Source of the DNA: an uncultured Pseudomonadota bacterium
Lineage (GTDB): Bacteria > Myxococcota_A > UBA796 > GCA-2862545
Length of the DNA stretch: 64,000 nucleotides
Assembly (NCBI GenBank): GCA_903861005.1
Contig: CAIOSP010000204.1
Span: 1-64,000 of the forward strand
Reading direction: 5' to 3'
The notes under the pieces are model-generated. The model ran no database searches, was not told the DNA's origin, and saw nothing but the letters and a program-made list of their open reading frames with translations. Of this stretch, positions 20,582 through 25,911 are shown piece after piece. Within the stretch, counting starts at the first letter, position 1; the number at the start of each line of letters is the position of its first letter. Both the position numbers and the translations under genes were made by a program.

Positions 20582-22375
20582 TCAATTGTGGGATTCACGC
20601 AGCGCGACCGGAACGAGGACGCCGAACTCCGTCAGCGCCTCCAGTTCGTCGGCGGGGAGCTCGGGGACGGCGCCTTCGCCGAGCGCGCTCAGGGCGTCGG
20701 CGGCCGCCGGATCGATGTCGAGGACGAGCGCCTCACCGGCCGCGTCACGACCGAGCAGGATCGCGGTGGGCGCGGCCTCGACCGGCAGGCTGTCGTGTGC
20801 GATCAACGACAGCGAACCGTCGCTCGCGCGCACCGCGTCCAGCCCGCCCGCCTCGGCGCGCTCGGCCAGGCTCAGCACCTCGTGCGAGAAGCGGAGCACC
20901 TGCATGCCGTCCGCGAGGCGGCGGCGATCGTCGGCCGCGGGGCCGTCCAGGTTTGCGGAGGCGTGCGGCGTCAGCGTGGCGACCGCGGACTCCCACGTCG
21001 CTAGATCGCCGATCGCGCCCGGGTGCTTGGCCGCCACCCACGCGCCCCACCGCACGGCGAGGTGCGCGCGGGTGAAGCCGTCGTCGCGCGCGAAGGCCTC
21101 GACCTCGGCGGGGAAGAGGTCACCGAGCAGCTCGCGCACGATCGGCACGCAGCCGTCGAGCCCTTCGAGCAGCGTGGTCTGCGTGGGCGCGTGGCCGGGC
21201 ACCGCGTAGCCGACCGACAGCACGTCCTCGATCGTCGGGAGCGCCTTGCTCCGCACCGCGCGCCACGCACGGACGGCCTGATCCAGGATGGGCGGCGCGA
21301 GTCTGTCGACCGCGCTGGTGCGGCGCAGCGTGTGGGGGATGATCTCGGCGAGCGTGTCGGCGGCGGCGAGCCCGGCGCGACGGACGGCGGGTGCGCCATC
21401 GGTGGTCGAGGCCAGCGCGCGCCAGCCTAGGTCCTGGGTCATCCAGCGCCAGCGGCCGTGCGCGGCGGTGGGCGCCATCGACGCGCAACGCTCCGGCCCA
21501 ACCAGGCCTGCGACCACGTCGAGCACGCGGGCCTCAAGCGCGTCCAGGTCCTCGCTCCAGCCGCCGTCGGCCACCAGGAAGCGCTCGGCGTAGGCGTGGA
21601 ACGCCTCGCTCGACAGCCGCGCCGCGTGCGCGCGCCCATAGGCCACGCCGTCGGACGCCAGATCGATCGTCGCCCAGCGGTGCGGGACGGGACGGCCGAG
21701 CCTGCGCGAGCGCGCGACCGCGGCCAACTCGGCCTCGACGAACCTCAGGCCCTGCTCGATGAAGTCGGCGGCCTCGGGGCGCGTCGGATCCGCCGACGCC
21801 ATCGCCTCGCAGCGGGGGCAGGGGATCCGGAAGGTGTCACCTTCGCCCGCGTGGTCGTCGCAGCGGCGGAGGAAGGCCTCGTCGAAGAAGTACCAGAGCG
21901 CGACCGGCAGGATCTCCGCCAGCCGACCGGCCGTCGCGTGGAAGAAGGGCGTCGCGTCTGCCCTCCACGAGAAGCCGACCAGCCCGTGGCACAGCTCGTG
22001 GGTGGACCACTTGGCGCGGTGGTGCGGGTGGAAGCTGGCGATCTGCAGATCATGCCGGAAGGACTGGTACTTGGCCTCCGGCAGGATGCCCGCGTCCCAC
22101 AGCGGCGCCTGCGCGAGCTCGGGCTCGGCGGGCGGCGCCCAGGCCTCGGGCAGCGGCAGGTGCAGCCGGCGCTCGAAGTGGAAGTGGAAGAGCCCGTCAA
22201 CCGCGGCCAGCTCGCCGATGCGCGCGGCGGCGGGGGAGCGGCTGTACTCGACCGCGTGGGTGCCGTCTGGGACGACGACCGGAGCGCCCGCGGCCAGCCG
22301 CGTCGCACAGGCCTGCCAGCGCGCGTGGATCTCGCCGACGTCGTGGCCGAGGACCTTGCGCGGGGACAGGCTCAC
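20582..22375 (-). CDS. HExxH-motif protein of unknown function in pseudo-HxsB/MopE set
   Basis: Soluble protein of 597 residues starting at a GTG that overlaps the MopE-lipoprotein stop (GTGA). Its notable feature is KWSTHELCHGLVGFSW, an HExxH metal-binding motif (H126, E127, H130). A helix ending WYFFDEAF follows about 35 residues later and could give a third acidic ligand. A CPRC pair lies at about 186-189 and a HPHH cluster just before the HExxH. The C-terminal 60 residues (PELPADELEALTEFGVLVP) resemble the end of a winged-helix peptide-recognition domain, but only weakly. It could be a zinc peptidase, or an iron hydroxylase of the HExxH type encoded beside peptide maturases. No signal peptide. 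Not matched to a known family by eye. Confidence 0.7.
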   Translation of the reverse strand: MSLSPRKVLGHDVGEIHARWQACATRLAAGAPVVVPDGTHAVEYSRSPAAARIGELAAVDGLFHFHFERRLHLPLPEAWAPPAEPELAQAPLWDAGILPEAKYQSFRHDLQIASFHPHHRAKWSTHELCHGLVGFSWRADATPFFHATAGRLAEILPVALWYFFDEAFLRRCDDHAGEGDTFRIPCPRCEAMASADPTRPEAADFIEQGLRFVEAELAAVARSRRLGRPVPHRWATIDLASDGVAYGRAHAARLSSEAFHAYAERFLVADGGWSEDLDALEARVLDVVAGLVGPERCASMAPTAAHGRWRWMTQDLGWRALASTTDGAPAVRRAGLAAADTLAEIIPHTLRRTSAVDRLAPPILDQAVRAWRAVRSKALPTIEDVLSVGYAVPGHAPTQTTLLEGLDGCVPIVRELLGDLFPAEVEAFARDDGFTRAHLAVRWGAWVAAKHPGAIGDLATWESAVATLTPHASANLDGPAADDRRRLADGMQVLRFSHEVLSLAERAEAGGLDAVRASDGSLSLIAHDSLPVEAAPTAILLGRDAAGEALVLDIDPAAADALSALGEGAVPELPADELEALTEFGVLVPVALRESHN

Positions 22376-24384
22376 GGCGCGTAGATGCAGGCCGACGCGT
22401 TGTTCGCGATCAACACCGACGGGTCGAAGTTGAGGGCGAGCGGGTCCGCGCAGCCCGCGCAGTTCGGCACGGTGAACGACGGCAGCGTGGACGAGGTGGG
22501 CGCCAGCTCCAGCGAGCCAACGGCGTCGTTGCAAGCCTTCACGTCGACCACGGTGTAGCCGTCGCCCGACAGGTCGAGCATGTCGCCGGTGATCCGCAGC
22601 GTGCAGGTGGAGTCCGCCGCCATGACCGCGGTCTTGATGACCAGGTCCTTGTTGGCGTCCGCGGGGAGCAGGTTGCGCAGCACGGGCGCCGCGAGACCAT
22701 CGCAGGTGAGCGTCACGCTGGTGGAGCCGCCTTGGTAGGGCTCGGCGTCCGCGTGGATGGTGAGCGTGACCAGACCCTGGCGGGGGCCGAAGCAGCCGCC
22801 GGCGTTGTCTTGCGGGTCCGCGTCGTTGCAGTCGCCCGACTTGGGCGCCAGGCCCTCCGGCTGGTTCAGGCAGCCCTGGTCGACCGGGACGATGCCCGTG
22901 CCGACGCCGTCGCCGTCTGCGTCCGTGAACCACAGCGAGTAGTCGTTGAGGAAGAAGTCGGAGTCGTCGCAGTCGTCGGGGTTGGTGACGTGCCCGGCGA
23001 CGAGCGCGCAGGAGGCGACCGGGGACGGGTCCGCAGGGTCGCCGTAGCCGTCGCGGTCCGCGTCCACGTACCAGACGGTGCCGCCGTTGCGCAGCGGGTC
23101 CGAGTCGTCGCAGTCGCCGCTGAGGGCCGCGTAGCCGTCGGGCTTGGCGCAGGCCTCGACGCGGTCGAAGAACACGCCGTAGCCGTCGGCGTCGTTGTCG
23201 CGGTACCAGACCGTGCGGCCGCTGACGATCGCGTCGGCGTCGTCGGTCAGGCCGTCGCAGTCGTCGTCGATGCCGTTGCAGACCTCGACGTTGGCGGGGT
23301 TGCGGGCGGCGTCGCGGTCGGCGCAGTCGAGCGCGTTCTCCGACCAGAGCGGGTTGTGGCCGCAGCCGGTCCAGACCACCTGCGTGGATCCGTAGCCGTC
23401 ACGGTCGTCGTCGGCGTACCAGGGGCGGTCCTTCCACTCGCTGGCGTTCGAGTCGTCGCAGTCGTCGGTGGTGAGCGAGTAGCCGATAGGCTGCCAGCAC
23501 TGGGTGTTGACCCAGGTGGCGCGGCGGCTGCCGTGACCGTCGCGGTCCGCGTCCACGTACCAGACGGTCGTGGGGTTCTGCTTGGGGTCCGCGTCGTTGC
23601 AGTCGTCCGAGTTGACGACCCACTCGTTGGCGGGCTGAGGCTGCAGGCAGGCGAGCTTGGCGTCGATCACGTTGCCGTAGGTGTCGGCGTCGACGTCGTG
23701 GTACCAGCGGCGGGCGCCGACCAGCTCGGACTGGGTGTCGGCGTCGTCGGCGAGGCCGTTGCAGTTGTTGTCGACGCCGTCGCAGATCTCGTCCGCCTCA
23801 GGGTTGATGCGACGGTTGACGTCGTTGCAGTCGTCCTTGTTCTCAACCCAGGACGGATCGGTGGCGCAGCCGGTGCCGGCGAGCTCCTGGCTGCCGTAGC
23901 CGTCCCGGTCCGCGTCGACGTGCCACTTGGCGTCGGGGTTGAAGCCCTCGTCGCTGATCAGGTTGCAGTTGTCGTCCACGCCGTTGCAGCGCTCGGGCGC
24001 GTTCGGGTAGACGGCGTCGTCCGAGTCGTTGCAGTCGCGGCGGTTGGCCGAGTAGCCGTCAGGCACGGTGCAGGCGAGCTTGGGCGAGTCCACGCGCTTG
24101 CCGAACCCGTCCTTGTCGTCGTCAGGCCACCACTCCAGCGCGCCCTCGGCCGAGTCTTCGTCGGTCGCCCCGTTGCAGTCGTTGTCGAGGCCGTCACAGA
24201 CCTCGAGCCCGCCCGGGAACGCGTTGAGGCCCACCGTGGGGCGATCATCGCAGTCGGCGCGACCGGCGGTCGGGTCGTTGACGAAGAAGCCGTCACCGTC
24301 CTGATCGATCAGGTCGTCGATGTTGACGCCACCGTTGGTGCAGCCAACGAGCGCGAGCAGAGCTACCGACGTCCAGCCACGCAT
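22372..24384 (-). CDS. MopE-type metal-binding repeat lipoprotein
   Basis: Outer-membrane or surface lipoprotein of 670 residues with lipobox LLALVGC (Cys15). It carries four MopE-type motifs (CDGLDNDCNGATDE, CNGVDDNCNLISDE, CDGVDNNCNGLADD, CNGIDDDCDGLTDD). Alternating with them are eight repeats of the form W[YHF]xDxDxDGYG, each followed by a Cys and a DCNDSD-like Asp cluster. MopE repeats bind copper in methanotrophs, and the Asp-rich DxDxDG loops are of the calcium-binding type. The C-terminus has GCADPLALNFDPS, a GC[TA]DPxAxN[YF] motif common at the ends of secreted proteins. It is encoded between the cysteine-free HxsB homologue (151 bases upstream) and the overlapping HExxH protein. Its Asp/Cys repeats could be the target of those two (inference). 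Confidence 0.88.
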   Translation of the reverse strand: MRGWTSVALLALVGCTNGGVNIDDLIDQDGDGFFVNDPTAGRADCDDRPTVGLNAFPGGLEVCDGLDNDCNGATDEDSAEGALEWWPDDDKDGFGKRVDSPKLACTVPDGYSANRRDCNDSDDAVYPNAPERCNGVDDNCNLISDEGFNPDAKWHVDADRDGYGSQELAGTGCATDPSWVENKDDCNDVNRRINPEADEICDGVDNNCNGLADDADTQSELVGARRWYHDVDADTYGNVIDAKLACLQPQPANEWVVNSDDCNDADPKQNPTTVWYVDADRDGHGSRRATWVNTQCWQPIGYSLTTDDCDDSNASEWKDRPWYADDDRDGYGSTQVVWTGCGHNPLWSENALDCADRDAARNPANVEVCNGIDDDCDGLTDDADAIVSGRTVWYRDNDADGYGVFFDRVEACAKPDGYAALSGDCDDSDPLRNGGTVWYVDADRDGYGDPADPSPVASCALVAGHVTNPDDCDDSDFFLNDYSLWFTDADGDGVGTGIVPVDQGCLNQPEGLAPKSGDCNDADPQDNAGGCFGPRQGLVTLTIHADAEPYQGGSTSVTLTCDGLAAPVLRNLLPADANKDLVIKTAVMAADSTCTLRITGDMLDLSGDGYTVVDVKACNDAVGSLELAPTSSTLPSFTVPNCAGCADPLALNFDPSVLIANNASACIYAP

Positions 24385-24405
24385 GGTCCCTTCCGGATGG
24401 CGGCC

Positions 24406-25857: not shown

Positions 25858-25882
25858 GGCGTCCTCCAGCGATTGACGCGTG

Positions 25883-25911
25883 GTCGTAAAGCCTCACCCA
25901 GGCGCTGTCAA
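25883..25911 (-). promoter_or_regulatory. Sigma70-type promoter of the pseudo-HxsB gene
   Basis: TTGACA (25906-25911, perfect -35 consensus) is separated by exactly 17 bases from TACGAC (25883-25888, a weak -10), 26 bases upstream of the GTG start. It is the clearest promoter in the window and places the start of transcription of the pseudo-HxsB, MopE and HExxH set. Confidence 0.55.

Follow-up and report, generated by a model that had tools for sequence, protein, structure and literature searches.

In a 64,000-nucleotide stretch of contig CAIOSP010000204.1 (hereafter the window), from an uncultured bacterium, three adjacent genes encode, in this order and all on the minus strand, a cysteine-free relative of the peptide maturase HxsB (pseudo-HxsB), a MopE-repeat lipoprotein and a protein with an HExxH metal motif. 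We propose, with a probability of about 40%, that these genes form a maturation locus like those of ribosomally synthesised and post-translationally modified peptides (RiPPs), in which the HExxH protein would be the catalyst, the exported lipoprotein its substrate and pseudo-HxsB a non-catalytic binder or regulator. The genome that holds this locus is G000; the genomes compared with it carry G-numbers, contigs C-numbers and loci L-numbers. The three genes are as follows.

24535..25857, minus strand: pseudo-HxsB, 440 residues, GTG start, zero cysteines; RiPP recognition element (RRE), radical-SAM-type barrel and SPASM-type C-terminus without cluster ligands
22372..24384, minus strand: MopE-repeat lipoprotein, 670 residues, 33 Cys, lipobox LVGC (Cys15)
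20582..22375, minus strand: HExxH protein, 597 residues, GTG start

These open reading frames, their order and strand, and the overlap of the HExxH gene start with the lipoprotein stop codon by 4 bases (GTGA) lie where a preliminary description of the window had placed them. The promoter that it also reported was not recovered, as no sigma-70-like site was found in 22300-26000.

The same description had regarded the 440-residue protein as a cysteine-free, full-length homologue of HxsB, and a profile search bears this out. Three stretches along the protein match TIGR03978 (HxsB) at E 1.6e-28, with a score of 99.7 bits that falls far short of the curated cut-off, 370 bits; Pfam gave no match. 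An AlphaFold2 model with a predicted local distance difference test (pLDDT) score of 85, whose input alignment included real HxsBs, superposes on CteB with a Z of 27.6 over residues 21-429 and on anSME, TigE and ChlB with a Z of ~25. The predicted fold is the complete RRE, radical-SAM barrel and SPASM maturase architecture. None of the eight cysteines invariant in 29 real HxsBs is left in any of the four close pseudo-HxsBs, and in alignments all four have also lost some 18 residues (TTLRCNQxCxYCHASR) that carry the CxxxCxxC motif. Judged by its sequence, pseudo-HxsB can neither hold a Cys-bound iron-sulphur cluster nor carry out radical SAM chemistry. The parts of the protein have fared differently: of the HxsB-conserved positions, the four pseudo-HxsBs keep 75% in the RRE, 9% in the cluster loop, 27% in the barrel and 36% in the SPASM-equivalent C-terminal region. 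The earlier suggestion that both the leader-binding and the SPASM-equivalent regions are kept thus stands for the first and only in part for the second, and a binding role may have been retained.

25582..25857, minus strand: RRE-like N-terminal region, residues 1-92, the best conserved part relative to real HxsB
25549..25560, minus strand: loop-deletion site after residue 101 (GPTLHVL), from alignments
24535..24906, minus strand: SPASM-equivalent C-terminal region, residues 318-440, from the fold match; all four conserved Cys replaced

A class search and a scan of 85,000 species genomes yielded three further close pseudo-HxsBs, in G006 (46% identical to the window protein) and in G034 and G042 (~30%); the scan itself returned three genomes, apparently these. 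The four close proteins form a single clade (support 100/100) that spans three families. A fifth, diverged pseudo-HxsB occurs in a sister genus (G002) and was matched by profile comparison at E 1.5e-17 over 375 columns. Pseudo-HxsB is an old conserved pseudoenzyme rather than a product of decay.

The HExxH protein is the candidate catalyst. The motif that had been noted at H126, E127 and H130 is present as HELCH and is near-invariant across 76 aligned homologues, as are further residues, among them the invariant E216, D242 and R319. On this pattern of conservation the protein is very probably an active metalloenzyme. It is new to family libraries: nothing significant, and no peptidase family, was found in Pfam, NCBIfam or PDB sequences. 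We considered TIGR04267, the alpha-ketoglutarate HExxH hydroxylases, and ruled it out; the profile does not match the window gene at E 10 (hhalign probability 0.1%), while a gene elsewhere in G000, on contig C6, matches with 87.5 bits.

21986..22000, minus strand: HELCH motif, residues 126-130; H126 and H130 invariant in 76/76, E127 in 75/76
21914..21916, minus strand: Glu154, invariant in 76/76, 24 residues past H130; candidate third metal ligand
20600..21229, minus strand: DUF2063 plus RRE-like partner-protein module, residues 383-592, from structure matches and a weak PF22106 match

In a structure model of the HExxH protein (pLDDT 92), residues 1-380 gave weak helical matches only in fold searches, and the C-terminal third alone matched well. 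Residues 383-592 align with NGO1945 (3dee, DUF2063 plus RRE) with a Z of 9.1 over 172/200 residues and with TglI (8hci) with a Z of 7.5; Foldseek gave E 0.046 at a probability of 1.00. These Z values are modest, but the top matches all belong to one type and score above unrelated entries. PF22106 matches the window protein at E 0.036 (14.9 bits, short of the cut-off of 27) and three members of its family weakly, at best E 0.003; PF09836 does not match it. In the predicted structure a helical DUF2063-type domain is followed by an RRE; the Pfam gathering score is not reached, and no MNIO enzyme (PF05114) was recognised in the eight neighbouring genes scanned. As modelled, the C-terminal third resembles the DUF2063/RRE partners that present precursors to MNIO enzymes, precursors that are often Cys-rich with Sec signal peptides and in some cases lipoproteins (PMC12452194).

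The putative substrate belongs to PF11617 (MopE repeats), which matches it in four stretches (E 1.3e-28, 99.4 bits against a cut-off of 27). Its C-terminal domain was found in only 4 of 67 genomes of the class (G000, G001, G002 and G006).

22375..22797, minus strand: lipoprotein C-terminal domain, with 7 invariant Cys and the tail CxGCxDxxAxNxDP...C.Y

Two orthologous copies in G002 show ~40% identity and full-length collinearity, and G006 has at least two, partial and in some cases cut by contig ends. The same four genomes encode a second, unlinked lipoprotein with this C-terminal domain (L235:5652-6635, L236:8062-9135, L237:8206-8589, L238:2-226), which in G000, G001 and G002 lies one gene away from an FtsZ-like gene. 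Background on proteins of this type comes from Methylococcus MopE, which binds copper with an oxidised Trp, kynurenine (PMC3423442).

From catalytic-residue loss, predicted folds, conservation, clade and gene order, all observed or computed, we infer a substrate, its binding and the direction of the chemistry. The HExxH protein, with its near-invariant metal-motif residues and DUF2063/RRE-shaped module, would be the catalyst. Its sequence shows no signal peptide, which would place its action before export: in the cytoplasm it probably takes hold of the freshly synthesised MopE lipoprotein, ahead of Sec export, and would then modify it, the partner module making oxidation more likely than bulk proteolysis. 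An enzyme with a module of the precursor-binding type fits modification of the lipoprotein. Pseudo-HxsB, which keeps the fold and the RRE without radical SAM chemistry, would either hold the lipoprotein as a non-catalytic adaptor or, as a competitor, restrict the enzyme's access. Consistent with joint function, the set of pseudo-HxsB, MopE lipoprotein and HExxH protein recurs in three genera of one family (G000, G002 and G006), always with one kind of lipoprotein in one or two copies, and the lipoprotein and HExxH genes overlap translationally. Published parallels also speak for it: the partners that serve Sec-signal precursors, some of them lipoproteins (PMC12452194), and the nitrilobacillin cluster with its competing pseudoenzyme PesX (PMC13060819). 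In G006 the set is split over two contigs that both end within MopE genes, which we take to join.

The surrounding genes bear on how this adjacency is read. Downstream of the set lie two M16-type proteins and a coiled-coil protein.

19105..20460, minus strand: M16 peptidase with signal peptide (PF00675/PF05193), often a neighbour of the HExxH gene within the family by synteny
17681..19108, minus strand: second M16-type protein, PF05193 (an inactive-domain model) its sole match; syntenic

Upstream are a TerB-like protein and an AMP ligase. The latter (olefin beta-lactone synthetase-like) belongs to a gene group at 26732-39894 with, further upstream, more AMP ligases, a carrier protein, an acyltransferase and a TetR-type regulator, which suggests a lipid or polyketide-type cluster next door. 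As had been noted before, HxsA, HxsC and HxsD are absent; none was found in the eight genes scanned around pseudo-HxsB. The locus is not in the assembled part of the same-genus genome G001, whose best M16 matches are other paralogues.

The main rival to a joint function is chance neighbourhood by synteny, a substantial possibility in which the HExxH protein is a general enzyme of the phylum with its own substrates, and pseudo-HxsB and the lipoprotein are a separate, clade-specific pair. Several observations weigh against the joint model, and some of them favour this alternative. In the phylum survey the HExxH family occurs in 101 of 379 genomes (70 of 236 genera) in varied neighbourhoods, mostly without the other two genes, and so is independent of them. 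Its steady neighbours within the family are the M16 genes, not MopE: elsewhere in the family its companions are the M16 pair and the coiled-coil gene, with neither pseudo-HxsB nor a MopE gene present. G034 has pseudo-HxsB with no detected HExxH match, and in G042 a sulfatase and another lipoprotein come after pseudo-HxsB, while the HExxH gene lies on a different contig. Synteny between G000 and G002 reaches beyond the set on both sides, so the adjacency may be inherited. Generic MopE repeats are extremely abundant across the class and show no tie to HExxH: repeat match counts (up to at least 21) and first-look candidate numbers, which did not differ in the expected direction, revealed no visible link to HExxH presence. 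Cys-rich neighbours are weakly enriched at HExxH genes (8/147 against 13/670, p 0.037), and three of those eight are related set-bearing loci. The C-terminal domain of the lipoprotein, recurring in the second, unlinked lipoprotein, may reflect the clade rather than the system. Finally, in profile comparison the HExxH domain did not resemble the known alpha-ketoglutarate HExxH enzymes. Against mere neighbourhood, the pair directly precedes the HExxH gene in three genera, with the 4-base overlap in G000; G002 has the set but no M16 genes between the HExxH and coiled-coil genes; and the HExxH protein carries its precursor-binding type of module. The three-gene set of the preliminary description is conserved in three genera, and most HExxH genes lie apart from it; the lipoprotein-modifying system that it suggested would fit the module on the enzyme, and the generic repeats on which that system might act are not tied to such enzymes.

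Other Cys-rich proteins were seen at related loci. Small exported 8-Cys proteins lie beside or near HExxH genes in G010 (L076:6309-6866), G014 (L080:11055-11573) and G013 (L075:13251-13796) and are possible alternative substrates; as candidate relatives of the lipoprotein C-terminal domain they were rejected, the similarity not being significant. A small 17-Cys lipoprotein stands directly beside the HExxH gene in G213 and G356 (L166:6940-7383, L167:9095-9520). Downstream of pseudo-HxsB in G042 lie a sulfatase (PF00884), whose start is lipoprotein-like, and a lipoprotein with 12 Cys (L082:1707-3056 and 3252-4223).

It seems unlikely that the HExxH protein is a metallopeptidase, directed by its C-terminal module to process the lipoprotein or its leader, with pseudo-HxsB as substrate holder. 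HExxH followed 24 residues later by a Glu, invariant here, matches the pattern of gluzincin peptidases, and M16 peptidases lie next door. However, no peptidase family was matched in any of the three libraries, the absence of a signal peptide would place the action before export, and the C-terminal module is known from partners of oxidative enzymes (PMC12452194).

Less likely again, and by a wide measure improbable, is that pseudo-HxsB serves mainly to regulate the genuine HxsB systems at other loci of the genome. It would then compete for their peptides or partners in the way that PesX, a metal-lacking MNIO homologue, has been shown to compete for a partner protein (PMC13060819). The RRE is preserved, and genuine HxsBs are present in four of the five pseudo-HxsB genomes (G000, G002, G034 and G042), including two in G000, on C73 and C93 (461-469 bits). 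The C93 cluster (L089) comprises HxsB, HxsD, HxsA4 and several radical SAM proteins. Against such a role, none was found in G006 (a metagenome-assembled genome, ~86% complete), genuine HxsB is common across the class anyway, and the placement of pseudo-HxsB beside MopE is conserved in three genera. The TIGR04267 gene of G000 lies on C6 (L240), whose end repeats the same protein end as C93, and in G002 a genuine HxsB cluster and a TIGR04267 gene are ~9 kb apart; genuine HxsB clusters here thus seem to include an HExxH enzyme too. A literature search found no paper on pseudo-radical-SAM proteins or HxsB function. That pseudo-HxsB is a decaying relic, as the loss of all catalytic Cys and the strong divergence of the G002 copy might suggest, is scarcely credible given reading frames open in five genomes, coding base composition in the window copy, one clade across three families with a common deletion, and the invariance of many positions across four sequences that are 30-46% identical.

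Should the maturation locus be borne out, it would show that a radical SAM maturase can become a conserved peptide binder with no catalytic role, an unrelated HExxH family would join the enzymes that may modify ribosomal proteins, and the extremely common, mostly unexplained MopE-type repeat proteins of the phylum would gain a candidate maturation route. More broadly, and tentatively, the family may define a new class of protein modification, in which an undescribed HExxH domain and a DUF2063/RRE module in one polypeptide act on large Cys/Asp-rich exported proteins, one clade using a radical-SAM-derived pseudoenzyme as adaptor for MopE lipoproteins. The HExxH-plus-partner-module family alone is a clear unannotated enzyme target, being present in about a quarter of the sampled phylum genomes with near-invariant catalytic residues.

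Each component can be set beside a known system. Pseudo-HxsB shares with HxsB (TIGR03978) its full-length homology, overall RRE/barrel/SPASM fold and well-kept RRE-like region, but it lacks the CxxxCxxC loop and the SPASM cysteines, scores far below the cut-off and has no HxsA, HxsC or HxsD alongside; having the fold without cluster-binding Cys, conserved across lineages, it qualifies as a radical SAM/SPASM pseudoenzyme. TIGR04347 (Pseudo-SAM/SPASM, NCBIfam) is, by its name, also derived from radical SAM/SPASM proteins and lacks working radical SAM chemistry, but it does not match the window protein at E 0.1 and, as far as seen, is not HxsB-derived. The lipoprotein is exported and has four PF11617 stretches like other MopE-type proteins; unlike them it is a lipoprotein with a clade-specific C-terminal domain. 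The alpha-ketoglutarate HExxH peptide hydroxylases (TIGR04267; ChlH, PflC, PesO) have the HExxH metal motif and the setting of protein or peptide modification in common with the window protein, which has no profile similarity to them and coexists with the genuine member on C6. Bufferin systems (PMC12452194) combine an MNIO enzyme, a DUF2063/RRE partner and an exported Cys-rich precursor; the partner-type module and a Cys-rich, Sec-signal substrate candidate, lipoproteins included, recur here, whereas the module is here fused to its putative catalyst, an HExxH domain, the scanned neighbours include no recognised MNIO enzyme and the substrate candidate is a 670-residue repeat protein. The nitrilobacillin cluster (PMC13060819) is closely similar in layout, having a conserved pseudoenzyme, PesX, alongside a partner protein, two M16 peptidases and an HExxH enzyme, but PesX derives from an MNIO enzyme rather than a radical SAM protein, the substrate is a short peptide and the HExxH enzyme is of the alpha-ketoglutarate type.

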